A DNA stretch of 27,667 bases, from positions 1 to 27,667 of IMG/VR virus record IMGVR_UViG_3300032053_000413; one strand, 5' to 3'. This document shows, piece after piece, positions 2,673 to 23,212 of this stretch. The notes below the pieces were generated by a model that was not told the DNA's origin, made no database searches, and saw only the letters and a program-made list of their open reading frames with translations. How positions within the stretch are numbered: the first letter of the stretch is position 1; each line of letters opens with the position of its first letter. This DNA comes from a virus. The position numbers and the translations under genes were made by a program.

Positions 2673-2701
2673 GTGTCACGACGTTGACTTCTGGTTCACT
2701 C
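2673..2701 (-). repeat. 29-base boundary repeat, copy 1
   Basis: First of six related 29-base elements, read here on the - strand. The core GTCAACGTCGTG is intact, with CAGAA just upstream of it. On the + strand the same bases contain TTGACT (2685-2690), 17 bases before TAGATA (2708-2713), which resembles a sigma70 promoter. A start there would leave almost no leader before the ATG at 2724, so the promoter reading is doubtful. Confidence 0.7.
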
Positions 2702-2723
2702 AATCACTAGATATGGGTGGTAC

Positions 2724-3170
2724 ATGGCTATAAAGTATGAAGCTGGTAAAAGTCCTGCAGATATGGCTAAGAAGCTCGAGGCCATGATGAAGAGGGCACA
2801 GAATCCAGCCCCTGTCCTGAAGAAGGCTGCACCCCTCATTAAGTCCATCATGGATGAGAGCTTCATCAAGAAGGACAGTCCTGATGGCATGACATGGGCA
2901 CCCAACAGGCCCTCGACGCTCGCATCAAAGCGGGGCTCACTCGGTGTGGAGAGCGGTCGACTGAAAGCCTCAATGTACGCGAGGGTTGTCGGCAACACTC
3001 TAGAGTTCGGTTCCTCAGGTGTGCCATACGCGGCCTACTTCAACTGGGGCACACGCTACATGTCAGGTCGATCATTCATGCCCAGTGGCTCCGGAGGGCG
3101 GTCAAAGATCGTCTTCAATCAGATCAAGCAGTGGCTGATAACATACATTGAGGAGGGCAAACTGCCATGA
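2724..3170 (+). CDS. tail completion protein, virion morphogenesis (Mu gpG-like) family
   Basis: A 148-residue protein matching the phage virion-morphogenesis (Mu gpG / HK97 gp10-like) pattern: an N-terminal amphipathic helix, then FIKKDSPDGMTWAPNRPST (about 52-70) with the family's S-P-D-G-x-x-W, then ESGRLKASM (about 75-83), and YAAYFNWGTRYMSGRSFMP (about 103-121), the typical tyrosine, W/F-G-T and R-x-F-x-P region. These proteins complete the head-tail joint or the tail terminus. It overlaps the next gene by four bases (ATGA), consistent with coupled translation. The ribosome binding site is weak (GGGTGG), unlike most genes here, and an intergenic repeat lies just upstream. Confidence 0.75.
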   Translation: MAIKYEAGKSPADMAKKLEAMMKRAQNPAPVLKKAAPLIKSIMDESFIKKDSPDGMTWAPNRPSTLASKRGSLGVESGRLKASMYARVVGNTLEFGSSGVPYAAYFNWGTRYMSGRSFMPSGSGGRSKIVFNQIKQWLITYIEEGKLP

Positions 3171-3694
3171 GCGAAGCAGCAGTAAGGGAAGTCCTCACAG
3201 AGGTGCTGGACGGCACCATATCAGGAGTCAGAGCGATCGACCCTGAGACACTGGCAGCAGACTACTACACGGGTGCTGACCCATACGGTGCAGCAGTTGG
3301 CGCTGTGGTGGTGCCCACATTCGACCTCCTGATAGAGTACGAGGCAACACCTGAGCAGATCATGCAGCCCTCACCCATATGGATCGAGAGGGTGAATGTG
3401 AAGGTGATCACCACCTGGCTCCTCGACTCACCGGCACTAGAGAGCTCTGAGTATGCCAGGATCAAGTCAGAGAGCGGTGACACGGGTAAGAAGATCAGGA
3501 CTGCGCTGTGCTGGCCTGGAAAATTGCTCACAACTGACGGTGGCACAGTCACAGGAATAATAAATGGGTGCCTTCTCTACACAAGCTCCATAATTACAAC
3601 AGATGAGGCTCCATTAGTAGGTGAGAGACCTGGCCTGCTGGTGACGGAGCACAACTTCACCGGTTTCCATATCAGCACAGAAGCAGTCTCCTAA
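3167..3694 (+). CDS. putative tail terminator / minor tail protein
   Basis: A 175-residue protein with no clear family motif. It overlaps the tail-completion gene by four bases and precedes the tail tube gene, the usual slot for a tail terminator (lambda gpU-like). The sequence alternates helices and strands (VVVPTFDLLIEYEAT near 45, VNVKVITTWLL near 75), compatible with the small alpha/beta fold of terminators. A Gly-rich strand pair follows at 122-140. The role is inferred from gene order only. The start is fixed by ATGA overlap with the preceding stop; an A-rich leader with AAAGGA separates it from the tail tube. Confidence 0.5.
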   Translation: MSEAAVREVLTEVLDGTISGVRAIDPETLAADYYTGADPYGAAVGAVVVPTFDLLIEYEATPEQIMQPSPIWIERVNVKVITTWLLDSPALESSEYARIKSESGDTGKKIRTALCWPGKLLTTDGGTVTGIINGCLLYTSSIITTDEAPLVGERPGLLVTEHNFTGFHISTEAVS

Positions 3695-3717
3695 CAATAA
3701 ACACAAAGGAATAAAAA

Positions 3718-5046
3718 ATGGCCGTATACATCTCTAACATCGGTAGACTGCGAACAGCAGTTGAAGGCACATTCAACGTCGATGAGACGGCGACTCCCGC
3801 CAACTTCATTGACCTCCCAGTCGCTGAGGGAACGACCGCAATGACGTGTCTCCAGGATCACCTCGATCCTGCCACCATGCAGCAGTTCGTTCACGCCTAC
3901 GCTGACTCTGACCTCGTCGGTGGCAAGAAGAGCTCCACGCTCAACTTCACCACACACCTCGCGGCCACAGGCAATCCAGTCACAGGCGCAGCAGCGATTC
4001 CATACCTCACCAACACATCATGGGCGCTCCGTCGAGTCCTAGGCACACTAATGGGTGGCGCGACATCAGGCACCCTCTCAGGTGTGGCACGCACAGTTGC
4101 AGTCTCAACGACAGCATCACTGATCAAGACCTCGACCGACGCATCGGGCATGGCACTTCCAGGAACGGCGATCGCAGTCCTCATTGCAGGAAAGTATGAG
4201 GCCCGTGAGGTGCTCTCATCCAACGCCACTGACATCGTTCCAAAGGTCGCCTTCTCAGCTGTGCCGGCAACCGGCGCTCCCATCCTCTTTAGCACGACAT
4301 TCCACCTCATTGAGAACCTCAGCGGCGCACTCCCATCGCTCCAGTTCATCGCTGAGGGCGCTGCAGCCAATGAGGCACCCCTCGGTGGATCCATCGCCGC
4401 GGACCGCTGGGCAGCCCTAGGGACACAGGGAACGTTCGGTATTGATATTACCCCAGGCGCAATTCCAAAGCTAACAGTCCAGCTCCAGGGAGCCTCCTGG
4501 AACCGCCTCGCTGCAGCAGCACTCGCAGCTCCCGCATCCATCGGTGGCTTCTTCCCAGTCGTCAACATGGACTCCGAGCTCATTGTGGGCACAGGCGCGA
4601 CGAACGCCTGCCAGACCCGCAACAGGGTCTCACACTCGGCATCCACATGGCAGCCAGGATTCGCTGTCACACCGATCACATCACCTGATGGCCTCAACAG
4701 CTCCAATGTCGTGGGCTTCAAGAGGGCACGCGGTCGTGGCGTAAGCGGCAACTTCATCGCCTATGATGAGCCGACAGCGACCACATGGCTCGCGCTGGAC
4801 CAGCTCAACAACAGCGGACCGGTGGCAAACCGCCAGTTCCCACACATCATGCAGCAGGTTGGCTCCACAGCGCAGGGAATGGTGCTCCTCACAGCCCCAA
4901 CAGCCCAGATCTCAGTGGTGCCAACGAGGACGGACGCCGGCGGACTCTACTCACAGACGATCGCCTGGGTTGGTAAGAACGATGGCAGCATCTCCTCACC
5001 CACCACAGACCGCGAGCGCTCGGCCTTCCGAGTCCACATCTTTTGA
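3718..5046 (+). CDS. major tail tube protein (putative)
   Basis: A 442-residue Ala/Thr/Ser-rich protein with strong codon bias and a very good ribosome binding site (AAAGGAATAAAAA before ATG), as expected for a highly expressed virion component. The N-terminal half resembles siphovirus tail tube proteins: IDLPVAEGTTAM (about 32-43), then a Lys-Lys-Ser-Ser-Thr-Leu-Asn-Phe-Thr-Thr strand (about 70-79) and PYLTNTSWALRRVLG (about 95-109). At 442 residues it is long for a tube protein, so extra surface domains are likely; a sheath protein is an alternative, but no sheath motif or separate tube gene is apparent. It lies upstream of the chaperones and the tape measure, as tube genes do. Confidence 0.6.
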   Translation: MAVYISNIGRLRTAVEGTFNVDETATPANFIDLPVAEGTTAMTCLQDHLDPATMQQFVHAYADSDLVGGKKSSTLNFTTHLAATGNPVTGAAAIPYLTNTSWALRRVLGTLMGGATSGTLSGVARTVAVSTTASLIKTSTDASGMALPGTAIAVLIAGKYEAREVLSSNATDIVPKVAFSAVPATGAPILFSTTFHLIENLSGALPSLQFIAEGAAANEAPLGGSIAADRWAALGTQGTFGIDITPGAIPKLTVQLQGASWNRLAAAALAAPASIGGFFPVVNMDSELIVGTGATNACQTRNRVSHSASTWQPGFAVTPITSPDGLNSSNVVGFKRARGRGVSGNFIAYDEPTATTWLALDQLNNSGPVANRQFPHIMQQVGSTAQGMVLLTAPTAQISVVPTRTDAGGLYSQTIAWVGKNDGSISSPTTDRERSAFRVHIF

Positions 5047-5063
5047 TAACGGAGAAATAAATC

Positions 5064-5447
5064 ATGTCATTCATTACAGACCAAGAGGCAGACCAACACC
5101 CACCGGTCGTTGCCACAATCAACGTACTCACCCTCGCCGCCGCGACAGCCTCAGTTGCACAGCTCGCAGTCTCGAACGGTGGCACCACACTCCCCGGTGC
5201 CCGTCCACGCTTCGTCACCTTCGTGTGCGACCAGGTGTTCGGCATCACATTCGGAGTCGGTGGCAACGCGGCGGGACCAGCTGATCCAGTCATCGCATCG
5301 ACAGCGGGTGACAGCCGCACCATGGTGTATCCCGCCAACACACCGGTCAGGTTCCGCATCGATCCAGCCCACCGCTTCTTCAAGGCGATCAGCACACCAG
5401 GTGGAACACTGCGCTGGTACGAGTCTGAGGGTCCGCGCACGATCTGA
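5064..5447 (+). CDS. small beta-rich virion protein
   Basis: A 127-residue protein, mostly short beta strands (FVTFVCDQVFGITFGVGG near 51-68, VRFRIDPAHRFFKAIST near 94-110), ending in a Gly-Gly-Thr-Leu-Arg-Trp strand. It lies 17 bases after the tail tube gene with a GGAGAAATAAATC leader, so it is probably made in quantity. Small all-beta proteins of this kind decorate capsids or tails; a small tail tube partner is also possible. No family is recognised with confidence. A strong hairpin follows 14 bases after its stop codon. Confidence 0.55.
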   Translation: MSFITDQEADQHPPVVATINVLTLAAATASVAQLAVSNGGTTLPGARPRFVTFVCDQVFGITFGVGGNAAGPADPVIASTAGDSRTMVYPANTPVRFRIDPAHRFFKAISTPGGTLRWYESEGPRTI

Positions 5448-5461
5448 TAACTGATAATGGG

Positions 5462-5494
5462 GGTCGGATCCGATTGAGAGAGTCGGATCCGGCC
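5462..5494 (+). terminator. strong hairpin after the tail tube operon
   Basis: A 12-bp stem (5462-5473 with 5483-5494; one G-T) around a 9-base loop TTGAGAGAG. Each arm contains the palindrome TCGGATCCG, so each arm could also pair with itself. The downstream sequence TGGTTTGC is only weakly T-rich, so termination is probably partial. This would lower the chaperones and tape measure relative to capsid and tube. Confidence 0.55.
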
Positions 5495-5503
5495 TGGTTT
5501 GCA

Positions 5504-5509
5504 TACTTA
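5504..5509 (+). promoter_or_regulatory. TACTTA promoter-like box
   Basis: TACTTA follows the hairpin and lies 20 bases upstream of the ATG at 5530. The same hexamer occurs in four other short intergenic gaps (6561, 17264, 19670, and on the - strand 21810-21805). It could be a -10-like element of a phage-specific promoter. No convincing -35 box accompanies it. Confidence 0.3.
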
Positions 5510-5529
5510 CAAATGAGAGGAAGAGAGAC

Positions 5530-6180
5530 ATGTCATATCACGAGATCGATCCCACAAAAGTCTTACACTGTCACTTGAGCTTTGACCCTGCACTCGACGA
5601 GGAGGGCATGGGCAAGGACTTCGAGCGCCACTTTGGTCGGGTTGGCGATGAGAGGAGTTCCCGCTACGGCAACAGGGATGCCTCACTCATCAGGGTCAAG
5701 CCCGGTATGAGACCCACAGTCTTTAAGCTCCGCCCACTCCGCATGGTCGAGAGGGCAGCCTGTGATGCACTTCCCACTGCCGAGAGTCGGTGGTTGAGGG
5801 CACTAGCCTACGCATTCACCGGTGCGGAGCTCGGCAGTGCCCTGTGCGGCAACTCTGAGATATTCCACCCAGTCGCCGGCGCAACCGGTCTCAATGATGA
5901 TGCGATGGACCTCCTCGGTGAGCGTGTGGGGATTGAGGCCCTGTACGAGATTGGTGCGGTGGCCTACAACAGGAGTAAGCTCGGCCCTTTCGGTCAGGGC
6001 TTTGCACCTCTGCCGGTTACCTCGGCGCTCGTTCGGATTCGTCAGCTCCAACACCTTGTGGATACCCGAGAAGGGGAGACATCCGACACGAGGACCACAT
6101 CAGTGGAATCAACATCGCAAGTGGTGACGCCCTCTCCGTCAGAAGAGCCTGGTCGTGTGACTGCGGAGGAGAGAAGTTGA
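5530..6180 (+). CDS. tail assembly chaperone (G-type), possible frameshift donor
   Basis: A 216-residue protein between the tail tube and tape measure genes, the standard place for tail assembly chaperones. Residues 1-154 look folded (FKLRPLRMVERAACDALP near 66-83, helices to about 150). The remaining 62 residues are Ser/Thr/Glu-rich and low complexity, like a tail read only when no frameshift occurs. CCCTTTC (5985-5991) lies in phase as C-CCT-TTC, and the -1 frame is open from 5979 through 6506. A -1 slip there would give a fused protein of about 325 residues, analogous to lambda gpG-gpGT. GAGGAAGAGAGAC precedes the ATG. The chaperone role is inferred from position. Confidence 0.6.
   Translation: MSYHEIDPTKVLHCHLSFDPALDEEGMGKDFERHFGRVGDERSSRYGNRDASLIRVKPGMRPTVFKLRPLRMVERAACDALPTAESRWLRALAYAFTGAELGSALCGNSEIFHPVAGATGLNDDAMDLLGERVGIEALYEIGAVAYNRSKLGPFGQGFAPLPVTSALVRIRQLQHLVDTREGETSDTRTTSVESTSQVVTPSPSEEPGRVTAEERS
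5985..5991 (+). promoter_or_regulatory. candidate -1 ribosomal frameshift site CCCTTTC
   Basis: A perfect X-XXY-YYZ heptamer in the reading phase of the upstream chaperone gene (C CCT TTC). The -1 frame has a TAA at 5976-5978, seven bases before the heptamer, and then stays open to 6506. Pyrimidine heptamers are less common than GGGAAAC-type sites, so efficiency is uncertain. Confidence 0.45.
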
Positions 6181-6506
6181 CACAGCTCCGTCGAGTTCCC
6201 ACTGACAGCGGACTCGGCAGGGCAGTGTTGGTCCTATCTGATAACATCAGGAGGGAGACAGGACACGAGCCTCCCACCTGTCCATGGACCTGCTACTCAG
6301 ATCCTGTTGTGGGTGCAGGGATCGGGCTGGCAAATCGTTTAGAGAAGTTCTCCATAGATGTAGATGACCAGCCGGCTGTTGTTGTGGCGGCATATGAGCT
6401 CATCAACAGGACCCAGAATCACCTCGAAGCGAAGGACAGGAAGGTCCAACGGGCTCAGAGGGAAGCAGAGGCGAGGATGAGGGAAGCTAGCAAGCCATCA
6501 CGGTGA
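6177..6506 (+). CDS. tail assembly chaperone partner (T-type)
   Basis: A 109-residue protein if started at TTG 6177, overlapping the upstream stop codon. GGAGGA lies six bases before the TTG, so independent coupled initiation is plausible. The same frame is open back to 5979, so the protein may instead, or in addition, be made as the C-terminal part of a -1 frameshift fusion. The C-terminal 45 residues form a highly charged helix (residues 65-105, Lys/Arg/Glu), suiting a partner that binds the tape measure. The stop codon overlaps copy 2 of the 29-base repeat. No family motif is recognised; assignment is from position and overlap. Confidence 0.55.
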   Translation: MTQLRRVPTDSGLGRAVLVLSDNIRRETGHEPPTCPWTCYSDPVVGAGIGLANRLEKFSIDVDDQPAVVVAAYELINRTQNHLEAKDRKVQRAQREAEARMREASKPSR

Positions 6507-6531
6507 CACGACGTCCACTTCTGGGACACTG
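6503..6531 (-). repeat. 29-base boundary repeat, copy 2
   Basis: Second copy, read on the - strand, overlapping the stop codon of the preceding gene. It differs from the consensus at the two bases after GT in the core (GTGGACGTCGTG), but keeps AGTGTC and CCAGAA upstream and GTGTCAC at the end. It lies 61 bases before the tape measure ATG. Confidence 0.65.
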
Positions 6532-6560
6532 AATCGATTCAAATATGTTTCCATATGGCC

Positions 6561-6566
6561 TACTTA
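6561..6566 (+). promoter_or_regulatory. TACTTA promoter-like box upstream of the tape measure gene
   Basis: CCTACTTATAGAG lies 26 bases before the ATG at 6592, in an AT-rich gap (6532-6575). Same hexamer as at 5504, 17264, 19670 and 21810 (- strand). The gene's ribosome binding site (AAAGGGTG) falls downstream, so a start around 6573 would include it. Confidence 0.3.
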
Positions 6567-11879: not shown

Positions 11880-12523
11880 CACTAGGAAGAAAAGCAAGGT
11901 ACGATGGTGAGATAAGAAATCTATTCTCAGGCACTCCAACCGCTGCAACTCTAATCAACCAACCCATGAGAATGTCCAGGTCGAACTATCTGGTCAATAA
12001 TATCAACCACATCAATGATCAGCGGAGTCAAGTTGTTGTCAACTGGTCTGATAATGATGCTACTGGTAGAGGGTTATCTTGTGCTTTCAGTGCTGTCGAT
12101 GGTGGATCTCCCACCGGACTTATTATGAGGGTAACATATCAGGCAAGACTCGATCCAAATGGAGTGCCCTATCCACTCCGAGTGTTTGTTTCCGGATACT
12201 CAACTGACGGCACATCTTGCTCAATTAGAGTAAAAGTTTCCGGAAGCACAACAGGCTCTGCCACTTCAGCAACTTTCACAGGTATATCTCCTGACTGGAG
12301 AGCTCTTGGGGGTGGCGCAATAAAATATAAGATGTTCACTTTCAGCGCTCCTGTAACAACATCTCTAGTTCAAGTGCCTAGCACAATAGGATCATCCGCG
12401 CCCTCTCAGGCTGTTATTGCACCGATTGAAATAAAAGTTGAGGATCCATCATTTCCCAGGCTCTCAGCTGCCAAATTGGTCATATCAGGTCTCTATGCAG
12501 CAGAATATGTAGGAGGATACTAA
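11876..12523 (+). CDS. tail tip-associated protein, unknown
   Basis: A 215-residue Ser/Thr/Gly-rich beta protein (CAFSAVDGGSPTGLIMRVTY near 68-87, then repeated strand patterns to 160). It starts inside the preceding stop (ATGA) and its stop overlaps the next ATG by one base, so it belongs to the tail-tip translation block. Codon use is AT-rich like the middle of the preceding gene. Nothing identifies its family; an accessory tip or fibre-attachment protein is the simplest guess from context. Confidence 0.6.
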   Translation: MTLGRKARYDGEIRNLFSGTPTAATLINQPMRMSRSNYLVNNINHINDQRSQVVVNWSDNDATGRGLSCAFSAVDGGSPTGLIMRVTYQARLDPNGVPYPLRVFVSGYSTDGTSCSIRVKVSGSTTGSATSATFTGISPDWRALGGGAIKYKMFTFSAPVTTSLVQVPSTIGSSAPSQAVIAPIEIKVEDPSFPRLSAAKLVISGLYAAEYVGGY

Positions 12524-13704
12524 TGGCAGTCATATCACCAGTTCCAGTTCGTCCAGGATATCCACTCCTCAATGAGGTGATATCCGGAGCACCCGTCAGG
12601 GCATCCACTTGGACATCTGCAGCAGAGTCACTTCTAAACTCACTGGGAAGCACCAACATATTTGTCCCATTTCACTCACCCAGGGTGACAGTTAACGGTG
12701 GTGCAGCAACTACACTCAGATTTAGGTACACACCCAATGGAAGGGCAACACAAGTCCGATGGCTTTATCAAATAGAGTTTACAGCATCTTCAGGTGCACC
12801 CCTATTCTTTGAACAAATTGCTGCTAAGGCATCAAAATCATCCACAATAGAGACTATTGCATTCACTTACACAAATCCAAGCCTGATATCACAGGTCCGA
12901 ATAGTTGGCCTGATAGGTTTTGAAGATACAGCATCGGCAATTGAGGATACAGACTTAGGAGTGAATCCAGCCACCTATCAGATTAGGGAGCCCATCACAG
13001 CTCGAGCATACGAGTCCATTGGTGGCCTATTTGAGGGTGCAACTTCCAAGTTCAGGAGATACTACCTCAACCACTCGGACTCTGATGACCTGTTATCACA
13101 CTGGAACACATCACTGACAGCCGGCTCATTCCTGGTGAAGAACGGAATAATACTCACACGTCGTCAGGTACCCACATCAGTGTACTGTCCCACCCAGTGG
13201 CACATAAGGGCAGCGATGAGCACCACACTGTACGGCGGTAAGGTCACAGTCACAAATAACAAGCCGGCAAACCAAATTGTCAATCACCTCGTCATGCCCA
13301 ACACCGATTTCGCTGCAGCAAATACTTACTATAATTTCACCATGCCTAGATCTTTCACATGGTCGAAGGCGGCATCTGCCACTGCAACACTAACGAGAAC
13401 AAACCACGGTTTCATCACGATGGAGTACATTTACATTGACTCCACAACAAATGCAACTGAACTTCCAATTGGCACGTATCAGGTGACAAGCACCGGTGTT
13501 AACACTATCACCATCAACACAGGTGTGGTGGGCACTGCATCCGGATCCTGCACAAATGATCTTCAGTTCGACGCTGAGGACTACAATGATAACTCAGGAA
13601 TGCCATCAGCAGTCGAACAGTTCTATGACGTCATTTACCGTGTTGATAATGCTGCTGGTAAATTGTACGTGTCAAACGTGGCCTGCGAGGAAGTCCTCAC
13701 ATAG
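12523..13704 (+). CDS. tail tip/fibre protein with FCCH-like beta module
   Basis: A 393-residue protein with no signal peptide. Residues about 276-346 match a beta module seen three times in the long fibre protein encoded at 14034: TRTNHGFITMEYIYI, then a Gly-x-Tyr-x-Val strand and a Thr-Ile-Thr-Ile strand. Such modules in phage fibres are often scored as resembling the E1 FCCH domain. The rest is beta-rich and unassigned. It ends the tail-tip translation block: a hairpin and copy 3 of the 29-base repeat follow its TAG. A receptor-binding or fibre-base role is inferred. Confidence 0.6.
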   Translation: MAVISPVPVRPGYPLLNEVISGAPVRASTWTSAAESLLNSLGSTNIFVPFHSPRVTVNGGAATTLRFRYTPNGRATQVRWLYQIEFTASSGAPLFFEQIAAKASKSSTIETIAFTYTNPSLISQVRIVGLIGFEDTASAIEDTDLGVNPATYQIREPITARAYESIGGLFEGATSKFRRYYLNHSDSDDLLSHWNTSLTAGSFLVKNGIILTRRQVPTSVYCPTQWHIRAAMSTTLYGGKVTVTNNKPANQIVNHLVMPNTDFAAANTYYNFTMPRSFTWSKAASATATLTRTNHGFITMEYIYIDSTTNATELPIGTYQVTSTGVNTITINTGVVGTASGSCTNDLQFDAEDYNDNSGMPSAVEQFYDVIYRVDNAAGKLYVSNVACEEVLT

Positions 13705-13706: not shown

Positions 13707-13726
13707 GGATGGGTTTCCACCCATCC
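13707..13726 (+). terminator. perfect 8-bp hairpin after the tail-tip block
   Basis: GGATGGGT (13707-13714) pairs with ACCCATCC (13719-13726) around the 4-base loop TTCC, three bases after the TAG stop. The following CGAATAAAAGAG has no T tract, so it may protect the mRNA 3' end or terminate weakly. Confidence 0.5.
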
Positions 13727-13735
13727 CGAATAAAA

Positions 13736-13764
13736 GAGTGTCTCAGAAGTCAACGTCGTGTCAC
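13736..13764 (+). repeat. 29-base boundary repeat, copy 3
   Basis: Identical over all 29 bases to the copy at 17228-17256, although the surrounding sequence differs. Starts GAGTGTCTCAGAA, then the core GTCAACGTCGTG, then TCAC. It is followed after four bases by ATATATGTATAGG, a promoter-like AT stretch. Confidence 0.8.
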
Positions 13765-13815: not shown

Positions 13816-14025
13816 ATGTCGACCATCGTAACAGATCTCGAGCCCATCACAAGAGCGGAGCTCGACAGAATCGTTCTACTATCAGTATCACACATCCTGG
13901 AGAATATTCCCGGCATACCCGACACAGACCTGCTCGACCTGAGCCGGCTGCGCATCACCTACGACAGTGGCAAGTTCCTCCTAGAGCTCCTACCTCCCGC
14001 CCCTCCTGAAGAGCCCGGAGTCTAA
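13816..14025 (+). CDS. small hypothetical protein upstream of the long fibre gene
   Basis: A 69-residue acidic protein (many Asp, Glu and Leu), predicted helical to about residue 45, then a strand (LRITYDSGKFLLELLPPAPPEEP) and a proline-rich end. A good AGAGGAGAATAAGA leader precedes the ATG. It is the first gene after the boundary repeat and palindrome. Its stop is eight bases before the long fibre start, so it is probably co-translated and may be a fibre accessory or adaptor. No family recognised. Confidence 0.65.
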   Translation: MSTIVTDLEPITRAELDRIVLLSVSHILENIPGIPDTDLLDLSRLRITYDSGKFLLELLPPAPPEEPGV

Positions 14026-14033
14026 GGGGGCCA

Positions 14034-17000
14034 ATGGCGACTTTTACAATCACATCGACGAGGAACTTCGACTCGATCGACTTCGTCTCGAGGACAGGCT
14101 CCGACACCTACAACATCACAGGTGCCGGCAAGCTCATCATCAACACTGACACGAGGTACTGCCTCAACTCAGATGCCACGAAGGGCAATATGGGCATCCT
14201 CGCCATCGACCGTTTCACGACAGGTGGAGAGATATTTGTCGATGGCACCTCCGTCCGAATCATCCCCTTCTCCTCAGGTGGCGGACTCGTGCCGGCAATT
14301 GGCACAACGATATCACAGGGGGCGACGACATCTGCCCTCCTCGGTGTGTTTCCCAACCTAGCATCACCTCCCACTGCGGCTGCTGCTGCAATGCCCGCCT
14401 CAGGCTGGATCAAGGTGAAGGACAAGGTGGGTAATTACTCATCCGGTGCGCTGACAGGAATAACTGCCACTGCAACAGGTCCGGATCGTGTGGGCTGGAT
14501 CGAGGTGGTTGCCGCGCAATCGATCAACTTCGCCTTCGCAGACAACGGCACATTCAGGGCATCAGGTGACTGGTTCACACTCCCAGGAGATCCGAGCCTG
14601 GGTGGCGGTGACCTCCTCACAACAGGCCTAGACTCAACCACATATCAGATTCCTGCATCACTGGCAGAGACCTACTGGGGTGGTGTCTGGGTTGAGACGG
14701 GACCGGGCACCAGTGTCTACAAGTTCTTTCCAGCATTCGGTGCCTCAGGCGGTGACTACGTCGGTGCAAATACAGTCGCCACAGATGATCACCGTGGATC
14801 GCTCTGCTGGATCAGCACACAGGGCCTCCTTAGGCTCGGATCTGATGGCACTAATAGGAACGGCTACCTCCCACCTGCCGGCTGTAGGATTCGAGTTCCC
14901 AATATCAACTTCATCATCTCCATCCTCGCATCAGCCGCAAACGTGGTGCCCAACTCCACACTCGCATCCCGTCCAGAGTTTTTAGTGTCTTCTGGCGGTA
15001 ATGTCATTCTCTCAAATGTCAACTCGTCCTGGTACATGAACTTCTTAAATGGCAATCAACTACAGATCACCGACTCTAGCATTCTCGATGCCATAATCAT
15101 CAGTAGATATGCAAAGTCAAAGCCTATCCTGAGCAATGTGGGTATTGGTGGCGTAGCACATGCAACAGGATACGTTAGCATTACAGCAACACTGTGCTCT
15201 CAGGGACTGGACCTGATCGATGTCGTTGCTATGAAGCCTCTTCCTATCACTAACGCATTTATAATCACACTGCTTGGTAACACGAACATTAACATGACTC
15301 GTGTGAAGGCGATCTATCCAAAACCGGCCATCGGCACAAATTATTACCACTCACTCTCACAAAATGACGGTGTCAGTCTAATTAGCTGCTCCGGAATTGG
15401 TGCACACGGTGGCTCTCTCACAGATAGAAACACCAACATTTACATCAAGGACTATGACTACACATCAGTCATAAATGGAACGACTGACGTCACACTTGCC
15501 GGCAGTGCATGGTCATTCACTCGTGATGTGGGACTGACCATCGATGGATTAAGCTTCGGAGGTGGTGGTCTGTCGACTCGAGTCGCTCCTGTTAACAGCG
15601 TATTTTTATTCGGAGCTGGCATGACGAACACAGTCGTGAAAAATATAGGAAGTCCAAGCTCTCCCCTCAACCTGGGTGGACCTGATGTGTCTGATGTGTC
15701 TTACACACATGTGACGCTCACCACTACGTCCACTATCAACACACCCAGTGCTCACGGCCTTAAGAGTGGAGACACAATCTTCATCACTAGAACAACAGAC
15801 ACTGCTGTCAATCCCGTCGGCACACTCAGGACTGTGACAGTGCTATCGACCACATCATTCACAATTCCCTGCTCCGCCGGCGCAGGAACAACAGGCACTG
15901 TCTCATACTCCCAGGCAATTTCTAACATTGGCATATCACTTATTCAGGCAAATGGAAACATACAGGACACCCTGGTTAGGTCTGTCTACTTCAATAACAC
16001 ACGCTCTGTCGGATTTCAGGCAGCTCAAGACACAGATGGCCTGGATGTTCGTGGCGTCTGGGTCGATGCAGCTGCCCGGGGAACCACAGAGCCACACAGC
16101 GCATTCAATGCCAACTATAGGGGAGTCAGACACCGATCAAATTTTGCTGCATCCACCACTATAGCAGGATCACACTTTGTCGACAATCACTTTGGTGACC
16201 TCACATCAGGAGGACTACCTGTCAATGCGACCTGGACGAGGAGCGGCACAACCCTCACAGTAACTGCAACATCACACAATATGATCACCGGTGACGGCAT
16301 CATGGTGACAGTGTGCTCAGATGTCAATGCAGAGCCACTAGGTTACTCTAGCAGCATCACGGTCCTGGACTCGAGCACATTCACAGTTCCCTGCAATAAT
16401 ACCGGTGCGCTATCAGGCACACTGACATATGAGAATGTCGCCTCCTACGTGCTGTTCATGACCGGCTACTCACCCTCCCCTCAATCAACCGCCCGGGGTG
16501 ATGTCAGGGACACAGTCCCAACAGCCACATACAGCAACTTGACCTACACTGCAGTGGCACCCGGTGTGCAGACAGTTTGGCAGCACCCAGACTTCATACT
16601 GGGTCACACGGGCTTCCACAACACACTTCCTCTATACGGTCTCTCAGGGGCCGATGCCCTGACAGCCTGGCTGTACGAGTACCAGATCAATAAGAATGAT
16701 GGTTACGGATTCAGCGGCTGGAAGAATGCTGCACGTGCCCTCTCCTGCACACTGACAGGTGGAGGAACGGCCATCACTGTAGCGGACTCCTCGCTCATAT
16801 CAGTCGGTGACCGTGTCTTGACCACAACATCCACCCTGTACACGGGATACGATGCTCAGGTGGTCTCCATTGACTCACCCACACAGGTGACAGTGAGCGT
16901 GCCCCACATCGCCTCAGGTGCCTCCGTCATCCTCAACTTCAATGCCCTGCCCGGTGAGGTACTGGATCCCAGTAGGGGCTTCAAACTCAAGCTCCGGAGG

Positions 17001-17207
17001 ACCACACTGACGACAAATGCAAGCTCAACGCTGGCAGTCAGATTCTTCACCAAGAGCACGACCTCCTCTAGAGACATCCAATACCCTGAGTCAGGACCGG
17101 TCTACGAGTGGCCCCTCCTCTCCTTCGGCATCCCAGTCGGTCGCACCTTCATCCGTCCTCCGGCTCCCAGGGGCTTCATCGTTCCACCCATCATCACGTC
17201 CCCATAG
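14034..17207 (+). CDS. long tail fibre / receptor-binding protein
   Basis: A 1057-residue, Gly/Ser/Thr-rich, almost all-beta protein, the largest in the window. The N-terminus (MATFTITSTRNFDSIDF) looks like an attachment region. Three beta modules of about 70 residues sit near 554-626, 730-803 and 900-972. The first two have a T-x-S-A-H-G-L / T-S-H-N-M then S/T-G-D-x-I pattern and a S-S-T-F-T-I/V-P-C strand, typical of FCCH-like modules in phage fibres. The segment between modules 1 and 2 resembles beta-helix rungs. AAGGGGG lies only 3-4 bases before ATG. A host-binding role is inferred. Copy 4 of the 29-base repeat begins 20 bases after its stop. Confidence 0.7.
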   Translation: MATFTITSTRNFDSIDFVSRTGSDTYNITGAGKLIINTDTRYCLNSDATKGNMGILAIDRFTTGGEIFVDGTSVRIIPFSSGGGLVPAIGTTISQGATTSALLGVFPNLASPPTAAAAAMPASGWIKVKDKVGNYSSGALTGITATATGPDRVGWIEVVAAQSINFAFADNGTFRASGDWFTLPGDPSLGGGDLLTTGLDSTTYQIPASLAETYWGGVWVETGPGTSVYKFFPAFGASGGDYVGANTVATDDHRGSLCWISTQGLLRLGSDGTNRNGYLPPAGCRIRVPNINFIISILASAANVVPNSTLASRPEFLVSSGGNVILSNVNSSWYMNFLNGNQLQITDSSILDAIIISRYAKSKPILSNVGIGGVAHATGYVSITATLCSQGLDLIDVVAMKPLPITNAFIITLLGNTNINMTRVKAIYPKPAIGTNYYHSLSQNDGVSLISCSGIGAHGGSLTDRNTNIYIKDYDYTSVINGTTDVTLAGSAWSFTRDVGLTIDGLSFGGGGLSTRVAPVNSVFLFGAGMTNTVVKNIGSPSSPLNLGGPDVSDVSYTHVTLTTTSTINTPSAHGLKSGDTIFITRTTDTAVNPVGTLRTVTVLSTTSFTIPCSAGAGTTGTVSYSQAISNIGISLIQANGNIQDTLVRSVYFNNTRSVGFQAAQDTDGLDVRGVWVDAAARGTTEPHSAFNANYRGVRHRSNFAASTTIAGSHFVDNHFGDLTSGGLPVNATWTRSGTTLTVTATSHNMITGDGIMVTVCSDVNAEPLGYSSSITVLDSSTFTVPCNNTGALSGTLTYENVASYVLFMTGYSPSPQSTARGDVRDTVPTATYSNLTYTAVAPGVQTVWQHPDFILGHTGFHNTLPLYGLSGADALTAWLYEYQINKNDGYGFSGWKNAARALSCTLTGGGTAITVADSSLISVGDRVLTTTSTLYTGYDAQVVSIDSPTQVTVSVPHIASGASVILNFNALPGEVLDPSRGFKLKLRRTTLTTNASSTLAVRFFTKSTTSSRDIQYPESGPVYEWPLLSFGIPVGRTFIRPPAPRGFIVPPIITSP

Positions 17208-17227
17208 TCAACCCATTCGGATAATCC

Positions 17228-17256
17228 GAGTGTCTCAGAAGTCAACGTCGTGTCAC
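17228..17256 (+). repeat. 29-base boundary repeat, copy 4
   Basis: Same orientation as, and identical to, copy 3. It lies between the fibre stop codon and the gene at 17312. It is followed after seven bases (TGACAAA) by TACTTATTGG. In copies 3 and 4 the distance from GTCAAC in the core to the following TATGTA/TACTTA box is 17 bases. Confidence 0.8.
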
Positions 17257-18565: not shown

Positions 18566-19372
18566 GTGAGCGGCTCCGGCAACTACAGCCTACTTGGTAG
18601 CCAGCGCATCACCCGTCAGAAGATGGATGATGCCCAGGGCACCATCGCGACAGTTGCCCAGGAGCTCTTCTTTGGTGGCTCGGGTGTTGTCACAGCGACA
18701 GGAGCCTCCGCCGGCACCTCCACCGTCTCATCATCGTTAGGTGCCACATCATCACAGACAGGCTCCTCTACCGGCACATCGACTGCCTCCTCCACATTCT
18801 CATCCATTGTCACTGCCTCAGGAGCCTCCGCCGGCACCTCAACAGTCTCATCCTCCATTGGCGCCTTTGGACTGGGAAGTGGAACTGCTGCAGGCACAAG
18901 CACTGCGAGCTCCACCTTCTCATCGATTGGTGGCAGCACTGGAAGCAGCGCCGGTGTGGCCACGACATCAGGCAACCTGAGGGCGGATGCCCTCTTCACA
19001 TCGACAGTGGCGGGAACGAGCACTGCGAGTTCGAGTCTGACGGGCATTGCATCACTCACCGGCTCATCACTGGGTGTTGCCTCAGTCCTCTCAGTCTTCC
19101 TCGCCACAGGATCACAATCAGGCACTGCATCGGGTATATCGACCGCAGACCTCATTGGAATCCTTGGATTAGTTGAGGCGCTAGCTGACTGCGCCGGCAC
19201 CTCAACAGCGAATGCCGTTGTGGGTGGACCGGGATCGACTGGAACAGCTGAGGGAACATCCACAGCTGACTCACTCATTACATTCTCATTCACTCCGCTT
19301 CCTGACTACACACCAAAGTGCACCATCCTCAGAGTGCAGAGCGCTGGTTCGAGGAGGTTCGCCATATCATGA
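18566..19372 (+). CDS. repetitive Gly-Thr-Ser solenoid fibre protein
   Basis: A 268-residue protein, about 75 percent Ser, Thr, Gly and Ala. From about residue 38 to 240 it consists of about ten repeats built on A/S-G-T-S-T-A/V-S-S followed by about 12 residues, period near 20, ending in a short Pro/Tyr/Arg C-terminus. Such repeats are expected to form a beta-solenoid or triple-stranded fibre; similar GTST repeats are known in phage structural proteins. Two repeat units are duplicated almost exactly at 120-base spacing (18700-18720 and 18820-18840). It starts at GTG 18566 with no strong ribosome binding site and overlaps the next gene by four bases (ATGA). Confidence 0.65.
   Translation: MSGSGNYSLLGSQRITRQKMDDAQGTIATVAQELFFGGSGVVTATGASAGTSTVSSSLGATSSQTGSSTGTSTASSTFSSIVTASGASAGTSTVSSSIGAFGLGSGTAAGTSTASSTFSSIGGSTGSSAGVATTSGNLRADALFTSTVAGTSTASSSLTGIASLTGSSLGVASVLSVFLATGSQSGTASGISTADLIGILGLVEALADCAGTSTANAVVGGPGSTGTAEGTSTADSLITFSFTPLPDYTPKCTILRVQSAGSRRFAIS
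18700..18840 (+). repeat. 120-base internal duplication in the solenoid gene
   Basis: The 21-base word at 18700-18720 (beginning AGGAGCCTCC and ending GGCACCTC) recurs exactly at 18820-18840, and flanking bases are also similar. The spacing equals two protein repeats of 20 residues, pointing to a recent two-unit duplication that could change fibre length. Confidence 0.6.
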
Positions 19373-19662
19373 CCATAAAGATTATAAAGATGGATCCCAA
19401 CTCACAGCGAGACTTTGTCGTGGACTGGACATCATTTCTGGCAACCGATCCAGGTGATGTCCTATTCACAGCCGTCTGGTCTGCGGACCCGGGCATCACA
19501 ATACTGGGTGGCCCCTTCGCACCCTCAACAACTGCCTCACTGGCCACAGCATGGCTCACAGGCGGGGCGGCAGGAAACAACTATCGAATCACCTGTAGGG
19601 CAACCACCCTGAGGGGAAGAATCATCGACTACAGCTTTATTATTGGCTCTTCGTCAGGCTAA
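19369..19662 (+). CDS. fibre-tail adaptor-like protein, paralogue 1
   Basis: A 97-residue protein starting at ATG 19369 inside the previous stop (ATGA); the longer in-frame start at 19318 lacks a ribosome binding site and is rejected. KMDPNSQRDFVVDWTSFLA (about 7-25), a Trp-Ser-Ala-Asp-Pro-Gly-Ile turn near 39, then ATAWLTGGAAGNNYRITCRA (about 60-79) and GRIIDYSF match small Ig-like proteins usually named phage fibre-tail adaptors. The next gene encodes a clear paralogue with the same D-W-T...W-L-x-G-G...D-Y-x-F order. They probably attach fibres or tip components. Confidence 0.65.
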   Translation: MTIKIIKMDPNSQRDFVVDWTSFLATDPGDVLFTAVWSADPGITILGGPFAPSTTASLATAWLTGGAAGNNYRITCRATTLRGRIIDYSFIIGSSSG

Positions 19663-19669
19663 TAAAGCA

Positions 19670-19675
19670 TACTTA
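19670..19675 (+). promoter_or_regulatory. TACTTA box between the adaptor paralogues
   Basis: GCATACTTAAGGAG lies in a 27-base gap, overlapping the start of the AAGGAGAGG ribosome binding site of the next gene. This position is too close to the ATG (14 bases) for a normal promoter with leader, so this copy may be coincidence. Confidence 0.2.
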
Positions 19676-19689
19676 AGGAGAGGAAACAA

Positions 19690-19971
19690 ATGTCTGCATT
19701 CAAGATTAAAGACCCGGACTCTAGGCTCGATTACACAGTGGACTGGACCACATGGCTAGACGGTGACAGCATCTCATCGGTCACATGGATAGCCGCACCA
19801 GGAATCACTGTTGGCACGGGCACATATGCACCAACGTTCACAGGCACCTCGGCAACCATATGGCTGCTGGGAGGCACCGTTCACACGAAGTATGATGTAA
19901 CCTGCAGAATAACCACAGCGCTGGGAAGGATAGATGATTACACATTCACTATTGCTGTGGAACCAACATAA
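19690..19971 (+). CDS. fibre-tail adaptor-like protein, paralogue 2
   Basis: A 93-residue protein paralogous to the one encoded just upstream. Shared points are DPDSRLDYTVDWTTWL (about 8-23) versus DPNSQRDFVVDWTSFL, then I-A-A-P-G-I-T, A-T-I-W-L-L-G-G (about 56-63), Y-D-V-T-C-R-I-T-T and L-G-R-I-D-D-Y-T-F. Predicted all-beta, Ig-like. AAGGAGAGGAAACAA precedes the ATG. The tandem arrangement suggests gene duplication with divergence, possibly to serve two different fibres. Confidence 0.65.
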   Translation: MSAFKIKDPDSRLDYTVDWTTWLDGDSISSVTWIAAPGITVGTGTYAPTFTGTSATIWLLGGTVHTKYDVTCRITTALGRIDDYTFTIAVEPT

Positions 19972-19989
19972 CACCTAGGAGACAGTCGT

Positions 19990-20328
19990 ATGGATTATAT
20001 AGCACTAACCGCAGCCATTCTGGGAAGCAGTGCTGTCACTGCACTTGCAGGAGGCCTGTGGTCATACCTCACCAAGAGAAAGCGGCAGCAGATCGACTGG
20101 GACAGCCAGGCGAAGAGCACAGTCATGAAGGTGCTGGATGATGAGAGGAAAGAGAATGAGAAGCAGGGTGCCCAGGTCGAAGCCCTCACGAAGCGCATTG
20201 AGTTGCTCATTCTCGAGAATGCCGAACTGAAGAAGCAGATCGCACTCCTAGAGCTCAAGCTGGATCGTGCCATGGAGATGCTTGAGGCACTTAAAAAAGA
20301 AAGTGTCAGACCACCTAAAGCAGTCTGA
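19990..20328 (+). CDS. membrane-anchored coiled-coil protein, possible holin or lysis accessory
   Basis: A 112-residue protein. Residues 3-26 (YIALTAAILGSSAVTALAGG and following) form one hydrophobic, small-residue-rich transmembrane segment, then Lys-Arg-Lys-Arg, and residues 38-105 are a long charged coiled coil (KRIELLILENAELKKQIALL). The N-terminus would lie outside and the coiled coil in the cytoplasm. The position at the end of the late operon is where phages often place lysis genes, but no endolysin is visible next to it, so holin, spanin-like or superinfection-exclusion roles all remain open. TAGGAGAC precedes the ATG. Its stop codon lies inside the downstream hairpin. Confidence 0.55.
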   Translation: MDYIALTAAILGSSAVTALAGGLWSYLTKRKRQQIDWDSQAKSTVMKVLDDERKENEKQGAQVEALTKRIELLILENAELKKQIALLELKLDRAMEMLEALKKESVRPPKAV

Positions 20329-20331
20329 CAC
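20303..20331 (-). terminator. intrinsic terminator for the - strand operon
   Basis: GTGTCAGAC (20303-20311) pairs perfectly with GTCTGACAC (20323-20331), nine pairs with an 11-base loop. Read on the - strand, the hairpin is followed by TTTCTTTTTTAAG, a good U tract. It overlaps the last codons and stop of the + strand membrane protein gene. Confidence 0.7.
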
Positions 20332-20394
20332 CTCATAAATTACACATCGGGTCCTCTGACGTCCTCTCTCTCCTCTCCTCCTCCGTTATGACCC

Positions 20395-20431
20395 CGGCGG
20401 CTCAGCCCGAAATGGCTGGGCCGTCGTTATT
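20395..20431 (+). terminator. intrinsic terminator for the + strand late operon
   Basis: Thirteen pairs (20395-20407 with 20414-20426, two G-T) around the loop CGAAAT, followed by TTATTTTTATC. It is a canonical rho-independent terminator for the virion operon. It overlaps the 3' end of the convergent - strand gene, so the end of that protein (PAISG) is encoded within the terminator stem. Confidence 0.75.
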
Positions 20432-20830
20432 TTTATCATCTGATAGGACTTTATCGCTGATTGTGATGGTGATTCCAGCAGCATCGAGCTCCTCCTGGGG
20501 TATCACCTTCGCAGTGGTGATCAACATGGCCCCGCGCTCCCACTCCAGTGCCTCATCCACAGTCTTTTCGAGGTGCTTGTCCCTCCACTCAGCACCCCTC
20601 TTCTCAGCCGCCAGCATTGCCTCAGCAATTCCGAGCTCAATGTTTCCATCCTTCACCTTCTCTGCCGAGTAGATGCCCAGCTCAATGAGCAGGATGACAA
20701 ATCTCTCCAGCGTCAGTGGATTTCCAGTGGCCTTTAGGTAGCGAGTCATCTCATCAGCCGCAGCCTTGAGATCCTCATACTGCTTGTTATCGAGTCGAAC
20801 CGTCACCTGCTTCATCTTAGACTTTTTCAC
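20402..20830 (-). CDS. ribbon-helix-helix-like DNA-binding protein, 142 residues
   Basis: The N-terminal 55 residues (KQVTVRLDNKQYEDLKAAAD, then a helix, then LTLERFVILLIELGIYS) fit the ribbon-helix-helix plan: one short strand with alternating V-T-V-R-L, then two helices. The rest is helical and charged (about 60-105), then a short strand near 118-128. Such proteins are usually dimeric repressors, or in phages may regulate early genes. It starts at GTG 20830 overlapping the upstream stop (GTGA); ATG six codons in is an alternative start. It is the last gene of the - strand operon, ending in the + strand terminator stem. Confidence 0.55.
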   Translation of the reverse strand: MKKSKMKQVTVRLDNKQYEDLKAAADEMTRYLKATGNPLTLERFVILLIELGIYSAEKVKDGNIELGIAEAMLAAEKRGAEWRDKHLEKTVDEALEWERGAMLITTAKVIPQEELDAAGITITISDKVLSDDKNNDGPAISG

Positions 20831-21030
20831 AGCTTGAACCCCTCACTTTCAATTTCGTCATATGCGAGGTCCTCGACCTCGGCGTTGCAGATGATGCGGA
20901 CCCACTTCGCCAGTGAGATGGGCTTGCCCTGACTGTATGCGAGCTCTGCCGCAGCCCTCTCCCACTCCCTTCTCTCGTCGAGTGTGATCCTAATGCAGTA
21001 CGTGCAGAACTGTCTCTTGTTGCTGTTCAT
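20827..21030 (-). CDS. small ribbon-helix-helix-like protein, 67 residues
   Basis: A 67-residue protein with a short strand YCIRITLDERREWERAA (about 11-27) followed by helices and GKPISLAKWVRIICNAEVE (about 35-53), again resembling a ribbon-helix-helix or MobC-like unit. Two cysteines precede the strand (C9, C12), possibly a metal site, though no matching pair is seen. GGAGATG precedes the ATG, and it overlaps both neighbours by four bases. Adjacent, possibly paralogous DNA-binding proteins suggest a small regulatory cassette. Function not established. Confidence 0.55.
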   Translation of the reverse strand: MNSNKRQFCTYCIRITLDERREWERAAAELAYSQGKPISLAKWVRIICNAEVEDLAYDEIESEGFKL

Positions 21031-21329
21031 GGCGCATCTCCTAGTTGTTGAATCTTCTTGCTGTTTGCATCAAATAATTGTTCATATCCATTTAGTGTGA
21101 GATAGAGGTAGCCTGAATCACCTAGGTAGACCCAGTCTGCTAGAATGAGCTCATCGACGATGTGCTTGTAGTCCGATGGGACGTTGTGGAGGCGCCACCG
21201 CTTGATGCAGGCTATGCGCTGCAGGACCGCGTGGGCCTGAGGGGTGAGAGTGCCGTCATCCTCCCCTCCATTTAGCTTGTAACGACGCTCGACGATGGAG
21301 TCGAGGAACTTTTGCTTCTCTACGGTCAT
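21027..21329 (-). CDS. hypothetical protein, possible winged-helix
   Basis: A 100-residue protein starting at the ATG overlapping the HNH stop (ATGA); a longer in-frame start within the HNH gene is rejected. It has helices at about 5-15, 28-45 and 52-65, then the strand pair WVYLGDSGYLYLTLNGYEQL (about 66-85), which looks like the wing of a winged helix-turn-helix. This is a weak structural guess. No family recognised. It is co-transcribed with the HNH gene and the two ribbon-helix-helix-like genes. Confidence 0.55.
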   Translation of the reverse strand: MTVEKQKFLDSIVERRYKLNGGEDDGTLTPQAHAVLQRIACIKRWRLHNVPSDYKHIVDELILADWVYLGDSGYLYLTLNGYEQLFDANSKKIQQLGDAP

Positions 21330-21784
21330 GACGCCCACTTTCGACCGTTGATGATGTTGTTCACGTGCTGGACTGAGACATTCCACAGAGCTGCTAACTC
21401 TGTCTGCTTGATCCCGTTGTTCCAGCACCGACGGATCGAGTCTGCACTGTGGGCTGTGAGTTTTCTGACAGTGGGAGGCTTCCTTCCCTTGCGCATGCAG
21501 TCCTCAACATTCTCCCTCTGTGTGCCGAGGAAGAGGTGCTCCGGATTGACACACTGTGGATTGTCACACTGGTGCAGCACATTCATATCCGACGGGATAT
21601 CACCTTTGTTGAGAAGGTAGGAGAGGCGGTGCGCGTACATGCGCCCTCCTCCGCCCACTCTCATTCTGCCATATTCGCCGGGAAGGGGAGTGCGCCAAAC
21701 ATGACAGCCTGTAAGCTCACTCAAATCCCACTTCTTGCTCATCTTCTGTAACAACTTCTCTCTCTTGCTCTCTATGTCATTCAT
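21326..21784 (-). CDS. HNH homing endonuclease with C-terminal HTH
   Basis: A 152-residue protein. VLHQCDNPQCVNPEHLFLGT (about 69-88) contains the HNH_3 signature: H71, C73 and C78, N80, H83, then N92 in the helix. Residues 42-57 (RMYAHRLSYLLNKGDI) form the usual preceding strand-helix. The C-terminal part (about 111-152, IKQTELAALWNVSVQHVNNI) is a helix-turn-helix, probably for site recognition. This is the standard layout of free-standing phage HNH endonucleases. The start is chosen at the ATG preceded by GGAGGA, rather than 14 codons upstream. It is the first gene of the four-gene - strand operon; the TACTTA word lies 20 bases upstream. Confidence 0.8.
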   Translation of the reverse strand: MNDIESKREKLLQKMSKKWDLSELTGCHVWRTPLPGEYGRMRVGGGGRMYAHRLSYLLNKGDIPSDMNVLHQCDNPQCVNPEHLFLGTQRENVEDCMRKGRKPPTVRKLTAHSADSIRRCWNNGIKQTELAALWNVSVQHVNNIINGRKWAS

Positions 21785-21804
21785 ATTGTATCCTCCTGTT
21801 ATAA

Positions 21805-21810
21805 TAAGTA
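21805..21810 (-). promoter_or_regulatory. TACTTA promoter-like box upstream of the HNH operon
   Basis: On the - strand, AATACTTATTATAACAGGAGG runs straight into the HNH ribosome binding site. TACTTAT and TATAAC are both -10-like. The stretch upstream (21811-21853) is very AT-rich. Confidence 0.3.
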
Positions 21811-21853
21811 TTACGTTGTTCAACAAACTACCAAATTATTTTCACATTTTTAT

Positions 21854-21882
21854 TTGTCACCACGTTGACTTATAGACCACTC
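21854..21882 (-). repeat. 29-base boundary repeat, copy 5
   Basis: Degenerate copy read on the - strand: GAGTG, then AAGTCAACGTGGTGACAA, with one base changed in the core. It overlaps the stop codon of the metallophosphoesterase gene and lies upstream of the HNH operon. It forms an inverted pair with copy 6, with 36 bases between. Confidence 0.55.
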
Positions 21883-23212
21883 ACTTGTCGGATGGGTTAC
21901 CATATAGACTTGCTGATGGAGTCCCTCCTGTGTCAACGTCGTGACACTGGCGTAGGAGTTGGCTCACATTGCACACCTCCCGGCTCATCTCACCGTGCTC
22001 CCGGTGGTAGACGATTCTCGTGGCATCACGGCCGCTCATGTAGCCCTGCTCACTGTGCCATGCATCCTTGCCGGCGAGGGTCCTGAAGCTCTCAACGATC
22101 ACACCCCGGAACTCCTTGCGCGTGGAGTGGTGAATGTGACCTGTCAGGGCGTAGCGGTGCTCGGTCTCTCCCCACATCTTGGGTTGCTCGGTCGCCATAA
22201 TGGACTCCAGCGAGTCAATCTTCGCCTTGTCACCGTGGGTGGTCATGATCATCACCTTTCCGAACTGGTGGTAGGCTCGGTGAGTCAGTGTGGGTGGCAC
22301 ATGGACCCTGGGCTCATTGCGGTAGTAGGCGCCCAGTGCGAGGCTGAGCATGAGTGATGAGTGTGCATCGTGGTTGCCAATCCTGCAATCCACAGTCACC
22401 TTCTGGTGGTGCTTCAGTGCTGCATCGATGAGACCTGTCATGATCCTGAGGCCGACAGCCAGCACCTTCGCGGGGCGGGAGTCAGTCTCCATCCTGTGGC
22501 CGCCCCTCGTTGTCTCCTGCTTCTGGTTGTCAAAGTGGAAGTAATCCCCGAGATTGACGATAAGAGCCTCCTCCGTCCTTGGGCCCCTGAGGACGAGGTC
22601 GTGCATCGCTCCCACCATCGTCTCCTCAGCGATCTTGAGGTCGAAGTCTGTGCCTGTCTCCTCGCCCCATGCCATCATGCCGATGTGGGGGTCACCGAGG
22701 GGATAGACTGTGAAGAGTGAGTCATTCTTTGCCACCTTTGGTGCCCTTATTGAGCCCACACGTGAGGTCACCTTCTGGGGAAGCCGCTCCATTATGCCGG
22801 CAATGATGTCCTCATCTGATGGGGGTGCCACCTTCGTCTTCACCCACTGGGAGGTCACTCTACCGTCAGGTCCGAGGAGTGTGGATGTTCCCAGGAGGAC
22901 GGCACCCTCAGGCATCGTGTCCATGTGGTCTCCCTGGAGGGGACGGCTGCCGAGCCACTGGGACTTGAGTGAGCCGTCATCTGCAAGCTGTGAGCTCACC
23001 CGACGGAGCTCGAAGCCTGCTGGAACTGGATGGACTGGCGATGTGATGGTGCCGATGTTGGAGCGCAGTGGGCCACCGGCGAGGCTCATCTTTGCGCGGT
23101 AGACGGTGCTCTTGGACACGCCAAACTTCTTGGCGAGCTGTGTGGTTGAGGAGCTGAAGCAGTCCCGGATCTCCTGAATCTGTTCTGCTGTGAGCTTTTG
23201 TGTGGTTGACAT
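21881..23212 (-). CDS. HTH-metallophosphoesterase (calcineurin-like)
   Basis: A 443-residue protein. Residues about 8-43 form a helix-turn-helix (TTQLAKKFGVSKSTVYRAKM). After a linker to about 160, a complete calcineurin-like phosphoesterase domain shows its metal-binding blocks in order: GDPHIG (D174, H176), NLGDYFHFD (D223), GNHDAH (N280, H281, D282), TTHGD (H326) and GHIHH (H359, H361). All expected ligands are present, so it is probably an active Mn- or Fe-dependent phosphatase or nuclease. HTH-phosphoesterase proteins occur in many phages, with roles in DNA or nucleotide metabolism not settled. GGAGAGAGACC precedes the ATG and a CATATTTATA box lies 44 bases upstream. It ends at repeat copy 5 and contains copy 6. 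Confidence 0.8.
   Translation of the reverse strand: MSTTQKLTAEQIQEIRDCFSSSTTQLAKKFGVSKSTVYRAKMSLAGGPLRSNIGTITSPVHPVPAGFELRRVSSQLADDGSLKSQWLGSRPLQGDHMDTMPEGAVLLGTSTLLGPDGRVTSQWVKTKVAPPSDEDIIAGIMERLPQKVTSRVGSIRAPKVAKNDSLFTVYPLGDPHIGMMAWGEETGTDFDLKIAEETMVGAMHDLVLRGPRTEEALIVNLGDYFHFDNQKQETTRGGHRMETDSRPAKVLAVGLRIMTGLIDAALKHHQKVTVDCRIGNHDAHSSLMLSLALGAYYRNEPRVHVPPTLTHRAYHQFGKVMIMTTHGDKAKIDSLESIMATEQPKMWGETEHRYALTGHIHHSTRKEFRGVIVESFRTLAGKDAWHSEQGYMSGRDATRIVYHREHGEMSREVCNVSQLLRQCHDVDTGGTPSASLYGNPSDK
21919..21947 (+). repeat. 29-base boundary repeat, copy 6
   Basis: Most degenerate upstream half (GAGTCCCTCCTGT) but a perfect core GTCAACGTCGTGACAC. It lies inside the last codons of the metallophosphoesterase gene (Gln-Cys-His-Asp-Val-Asp-Thr), so the element appears to be embedded in coding sequence. 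Confidence 0.5.

Follow-up and report, generated by a model that had tools for sequence, protein, structure and literature searches.

A six-copy asymmetric DNA element at gene ends of a phage record: a candidate site for a phage-encoded DNA-binding protein

Introduction

What kind of site is a DNA element that recurs six times in one phage record, mostly behind gene ends, and which protein would read it? An initial annotation of the sequence described the six copies as 29 bases long, compared them with mycobacteriophage stoperators, and offered operators, terminator-protein sites or recombination hot spots as explanations. Here, we follow these proposals by comparing the copies with one another, with relatives of the phage and with known systems. 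We tentatively infer, at somewhat short of even confidence, that the elements are orientation-independent operator or roadblock sites that a phage protein would bind.

The sequence analyzed, called the window below, is the IMG/VR record G000 in full (27,667 bases, linear class). It encodes a Mu-like major head protein (PF10124), a Phage_tail_S protein, a tape measure protein (phrog_1533), GP4-type fiber and adaptor proteins (PF23140, PF23148) and GIY-YIG endonucleases, while its leftward gene block carries an exonuclease and an HNH-HTH protein. Because neither the terminase large subunit nor the portal gene was found in it, the window is probably a fragment of a phage genome, and part of the sites may therefore be missing. 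We found 28 new relatives (29 counting L024), with head protein identities of 57 to 60%, and those with end repeats measure 33.7 to 47.4 kb; for all relatives, genes were called mechanically as ORFs or taken from tblastn matches. Besides the window, only G006 (the same as L086) was found to belong to its sub-clade. Megablast of window bases 1-25,000 against phages gave no match, and neither did a prophage search with the capsid protein against genome contigs. Rfam and tRNA scans found nothing. The gap before gene 1602 holds a tRNA-like minihelix (1514-1570; TGGGTGG...TTAGG-TTCGACT-CCTAA-TCATCCA) with an acceptor-like stem and a T-arm and without a D or anticodon arm, which ARAGORN and Rfam did not match; a 30-mer related to it occurs in inverted orientation at 12147-12176.

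Results

A weight-matrix scan reproduced all six copies, on the strands given in the initial annotation, with scores of 46.9, 46.9, 43.1, 40.4, 36.9 and 36.1 bits, against only 8.3 bits for the next-best site; ten Markov-shuffled windows reached maxima of 4.8 to 15.8 bits, and the scan returned no comparable further site in the record. Copy 1 (2673..2718, - strand; core 2673-2701, ATGGGT block 2713-2718 as read on the + strand; 43.1 bits) begins 12 bases past the stop of gene 2184-2660, and copy 2 (6503..6548, - strand; core 6503-6531, degenerate ATATGT block 6543-6548; 40.4 bits) supplies with its first bases, the GTGA of the element, the TGA stop of gene 6177-6506. Copy 3 (13716..13764, + strand; ACCCAT block 13719-13724, core 13736-13764; 46.9 bits) begins 11 bases past the stop at 13704 and is preceded by the hairpin GGATGGGT-ttcc-ACCCATCC (13708-13727). 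Copy 4 (17208..17256, + strand; ACCCAT block 17211-17216, core 17228-17256; 46.9 bits) follows the stop codon at 17205-17207 without a gap, and two tail genes (69 and 1057 aa, 13816-17207) lie between these direct repeats. In the leftward block, copy 5 (21854..21897, - strand; core 21854-21882, ATGGGT block 21892-21897; 36.9 bits) has the ATG of the HNH gene (21785) about 70 bases downstream. Copy 6 (21919..21947, + strand; 36.1 bits) is inverted relative to copy 5 and lies within the 3' extension of the exonuclease ORF, starting at about codon 422, and homology to other exonucleases stops at residue ~411-423. The 3' end of this exonuclease gene recurs in the intergenic space upstream of the gene itself (21960-22016 and 23473-23529, 98% over 49 bases); this duplication is a trace of recombination. 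Five of the six copies fall in non-coding gaps, a class of sequence that occupies about 6.5% of the record (1,800 of 27,667 bases), and none lies inside conserved coding region. An equal frequency within genes and at their borders, which would have counted against a boundary element, is thus not what we found.

The 29-base core, GAGTGNNNCAGAAGTCAACGTCGTGWCAC, proved to be sound but not the whole element, which runs for about 48-50 bases through an ATGGGT block (ACCCAT on the opposite strand). In copies 1, 3, 4 and 5, this block stands at a fixed spacing of 9-11 bases from the core, while in copies 2 and 6 it is degenerate (ATATGT/ATATGG). Averaged over all pairs of copies, identity reaches 0.78 in the 29-base core, drops to 0.31 in the spacer, rises again to 0.44 in the ATGGGT block and is 0.26-0.29 in the outer flanks. 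As had been reported, the cores of copies 3 and 4 agree at all 29 bases, even though their 10-base spacers differ. Because core and distal block are kept at a fixed distance while the spacer varies freely, the element has the look of a protein footprint, and this block-wise constraint would suit such a footprint but not neutral copies of one repeat. The GTCA-N6-TGAC dyad that the initial annotation read in several copies is present in three of the six (copies 1, 5 and 6); an A/T switch disrupts it in copies 2, 3 and 4, and it is therefore not a conserved feature.

Relative to transcription, the copies are evenly divided: copies 1, 2 and 6 are co-directional (R orientation) and copies 3, 4 and 5 opposed. 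We found no conserved RNA fold in either orientation, for the elements of the window or for those of G006 described below; no sigma-70-like promoter overlapping any copy (the sigma-70 type was scanned); and no intrinsic terminator, that is, a G+C-rich hairpin followed by a T-run, on any copy. Since no conserved RNA structure and no sigma-70-like promoter or terminator was found, and the orientations stand at 3:3, the function would be one of double-stranded DNA, independent of direction.

These data also bear on the possibility that the elements are promoters of a phage-specific type, alone or combined with activator sites, from which separate transcripts would begin inside the structural region. 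Such a role is suggested by the GTGWCAC end of copies 3, 4 and 5, which faces a gene start 51-68 bases away, by TATGTA/TACTTA 17 bases after GTCAAC in copies 3/4, by a TTGACT within the core when it is read in the other orientation, and by TATAAT/TAGAAT within the G006 elements. However, a suitably placed -10-like sequence occurs in only two of the six copies, the opposite direction is taken by copies 1, 2 and 6, TTGAC is missing from copy 2, and no sigma-70-like site overlaps any of the six. We therefore regard promoters as an unlikely explanation, although it survives better than the other alternatives.

The relatives bear on how copies 1 and 2 came to lie where they do. The genes on either side of copy 1 touch or overlap (gap -1 to 1) in 19 of the 21 relatives having both genes, and those on either side of copy 2 are 0-6 bases apart in 12 of 13, whereas the corresponding gaps in the window measure 63 and 85 bases; the exceptions are L024, with an extra gene at the first junction, and L086/G006. 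Because these junctions are gap-free in most relatives, copies 1 and 2 were added inside a compact structural operon, as lineage-specific insertions directly behind stop codons. The description of the copies as marks of transcription-unit boundaries thus stands insofar as they lie behind gene ends, but it does not stand for copies 1 and 2, which sit within an operon. At the junction of copy 1, G006 has an ORF (L096:21535-21765, - strand) that ends in KFAREKSLSYYALREVTFGTQICHKGWTKP; in our own reading, this end resembles the DNA-binding tail of homing endonucleases.

Insertion of this kind could also be the work of a mobile or homing-associated sequence, short and without coding capacity, present as remnants or by spread, that settles behind stop codons and has no regulatory role. 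Beyond the lineage-specific insertion of copies 1 and 2 at gene ends, the homing-endonuclease-like tail that we read in the G006 ORF would fit this, as would the position of copies 5/6 next to the HNH gene, with a duplicated exonuclease 3' fragment nearby, and the arrangement of copies 3/4 as direct repeats around a two-gene tail cassette that has no counterpart between the orthologous neighbors in G006. Against it, the 10-base spacer is randomized while the flanking blocks are kept at a fixed distance, unlike neutral copies; no terminal inverted repeats or target-site duplications, by which a MITE would be recognized, are visible flanking the six copies, and no transposase was seen; and no match turned up in the other records searched. 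We consider a mobile sequence rather improbable.

The element sequence is absent from every other record searched, including all relatives found. The core 16-mer gave 19 hits in viral contigs, about the chance level, each a single match with no further copies; longer and degenerate patterns against viral contigs, and a 20-mer against genome contigs, matched nothing, and BLAST of copy 3 against phage and plasmid collections gave no meaningful match. Absence from close relatives had been named in advance as an outcome that would speak against the element, and it holds for the sequence in all relatives found; in G006, two of the junctions are nevertheless occupied by an analogous element. This is a two-copy intergenic element of its own, 53 bases long (GCCAGGATNNCTCTANAATCGTTCCTAANNTCTTNGACGTATNNNTANCNCATC), which scores 31 against a shuffled maximum of 15. 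One copy lies at the junction of window copy 2 (L096:17707-17759, - strand) and the other in the interval of window copies 3/4 (L096:10263-10315, - strand). Homology between the two elements was considered and rejected, as a single alignment with p ~0.003 among ~40 tests is not significant. Because there is no convincing sequence similarity, a common function of the window and G006 elements would be argued from position. The same position with a different sequence, at two junctions in one relative, would fit a site and its protein evolving in step. In the G+C-rich relatives G001-G005, repeats are mostly coding or low-complexity. G002 carries a 69-base two-copy intergenic repeat outside the structural genes (L101:1708-1834 and 3405-3475), which contains a GTGCTAGCAC palindrome and may be a separate operator or promoter.

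Which protein would bind the element? The initial annotation had pointed to two ribbon-helix-helix-like proteins (20402-21030). Their genes overlap and encode 67 aa (20827..21030, - strand) and 142 aa (20402..20830, - strand). Both have orthologs in G006, at 3784-3969 (phmmer 4.7e-8) and 3966-4229 (phmmer 7e-4), respectively, and these are adjacent there as well, which lends the proposal slight weight. The model of the 67-aa protein has helices at 17-34 and 40-56, in the order expected of this fold, with a mid-chain pLDDT of 82-92, and that of the 142-aa protein, of low confidence, opens with strand-helix-helix. The proposed fold fared less well, since Foldseek found nothing significant for the 67-aa model, and the pair is possibly of the ribbon-helix-helix type, judging from sequence pattern and one partial model. 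No counterpart of the pair was detected in G001-G005, relatives without such elements, so that the co-occurrence of element and gene pair amounts to two records versus five and is confounded by kinship. An alternative candidate is the HNH endonuclease with a C-terminal HTH (21326..21785, - strand), directly downstream of copies 5/6, which matches phrog_1872 (6e-33) and PF13392 (4.5e-12), with HTH_3 below the cut-off. The small gene pair at 20402-21030 would be the likeliest binder and the HNH-HTH protein the second. An autorepressor usually acts upstream of the first gene of its operon; no element lies upstream of the first gene of the leftward operon (23212), which counts against a reading of the elements as operators of a phage protein. 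Shortly ahead of their starts, genes of this leftward block share sequences of the CAACAACTAGGAG or TTGTTGAACAAC type (21028-21050, 21800-21826, 23210-23232).

Discussion

In the explanation we favor, a phage-encoded DNA-binding protein would recognize the double-stranded element directly behind gene 3' ends, and the bound protein, acting as an orientation-independent operator or transcription roadblock, would set the relative expression of the gene blocks. With the inverted copies 5/6 lying upstream of both the HNH gene and the ribbon-helix-helix-like genes, autoregulation would then be possible.

The comparison with stoperators holds in part. The stoperators of cluster A mycobacteriophages such as L5 and Bxb1 are asymmetric 13-bp sites present in 24-34 copies (PMC3029335, PMC9283540), and they keep a single orientation relative to transcription and are inactive when reversed (PMC9283540, PMC3029335). 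The elements of the window share with them the asymmetry, the dispersed positions, the short intergenic spaces and the overlap with gene ends. In contrast, they measure ~48-50 bp, number six and are balanced in orientation, three with and three against transcription, where one orientation defines a stoperator, and their 29-base core differs from the 13-bp consensus GGTGGMTGTCAAG or GTTACGWDTCAAG. The elements are thus somewhat like stoperators but stand outside that family, in which membership fails on orientation. Stoperator phages are temperate, and their HTH immunity repressor, once bound, stops elongation. The window, itself a fragment, and six relatives gave no match to integrase (PF00589) and no above-cut-off match to an HTH_3 repressor (PF01381), and because neither was found, an immunity role lacks support. 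In one further respect, the likeness extends to G006: the related phages L5 and Bxb1 differ in stoperator sequence (PMC3029335), as do the window and G006 in their elements.

Other dispersed sites offer closer or more distant parallels. The conserved non-coding start-associated sequences of cluster K mycobacteriophages, which lie before start codons in one orientation, resemble the elements as conserved non-coding motifs at gene borders, but those of the window lie behind stop codons and in both orientations. Phage P1 has 22 asymmetric 17-bp C1 operators dispersed on its genome (PMC8546580), and the six sites here are likewise asymmetric and dispersed. They are unrelated to the C1 operators (ATTGCTCTAATAAATTT) in sequence; the P1 operators serve a known lysogeny repressor, whereas the window sites have candidate binders only, and P1-type sites overlap the promoters of the genes they regulate, whereas the window copies show no sigma-70-like promoter. 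The C1 operators are the nearest analogue of known function.

Localized nick sites were rejected as an equivalent: the nick motifs of phiKMV-like phages and phage tf (CGACxxxxxCCTA/CTCCGG, TACT/RTGMC) are also short motifs that recur across the phage genome, but they occupy one strand only (PMC3517423), while the window copies lie on both strands and differ in sequence and length. DNA-processing sites in general, for site-specific recombination, programmed nicking, packaging, partition or replication arrest, would suit an asymmetric DNA-level site with few copies across the genome in both orientations, but they are the least probable of the alternatives and quite doubtful, since known phage nick sites are on one strand only (PMC3517423), no integrase or resolvase was found in the window or six relatives, and recombination between copies 2 and 3, which are inverted, would turn the tail module around. 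With no recombinase found, recombination hot spots gain no support either.

Returning to sites bound by a phage protein, a more specific version would have the sites, long and asymmetric, diverge in parallel with the small protein pair in a group without detectable integrase or HTH_3 repressor. Each phage would carry its own site behind structural-operon stop codons in either orientation, and the resulting roadblocks would fix the proportions of the virion proteins; we put this forward as a speculative and, for now, improbable model. Sites of a dispersed, transcription-halting kind are most familiar from temperate actinophages, in which they keep the prophage silent. If the elements are roadblocks in a group without sign of lysogeny, protein-bound sites behind stop codons could grade the expression of structural genes during lytic growth; G006, whose element differs at two shared junctions, would then offer a natural example of a DNA-binding protein and its sites evolving in step.
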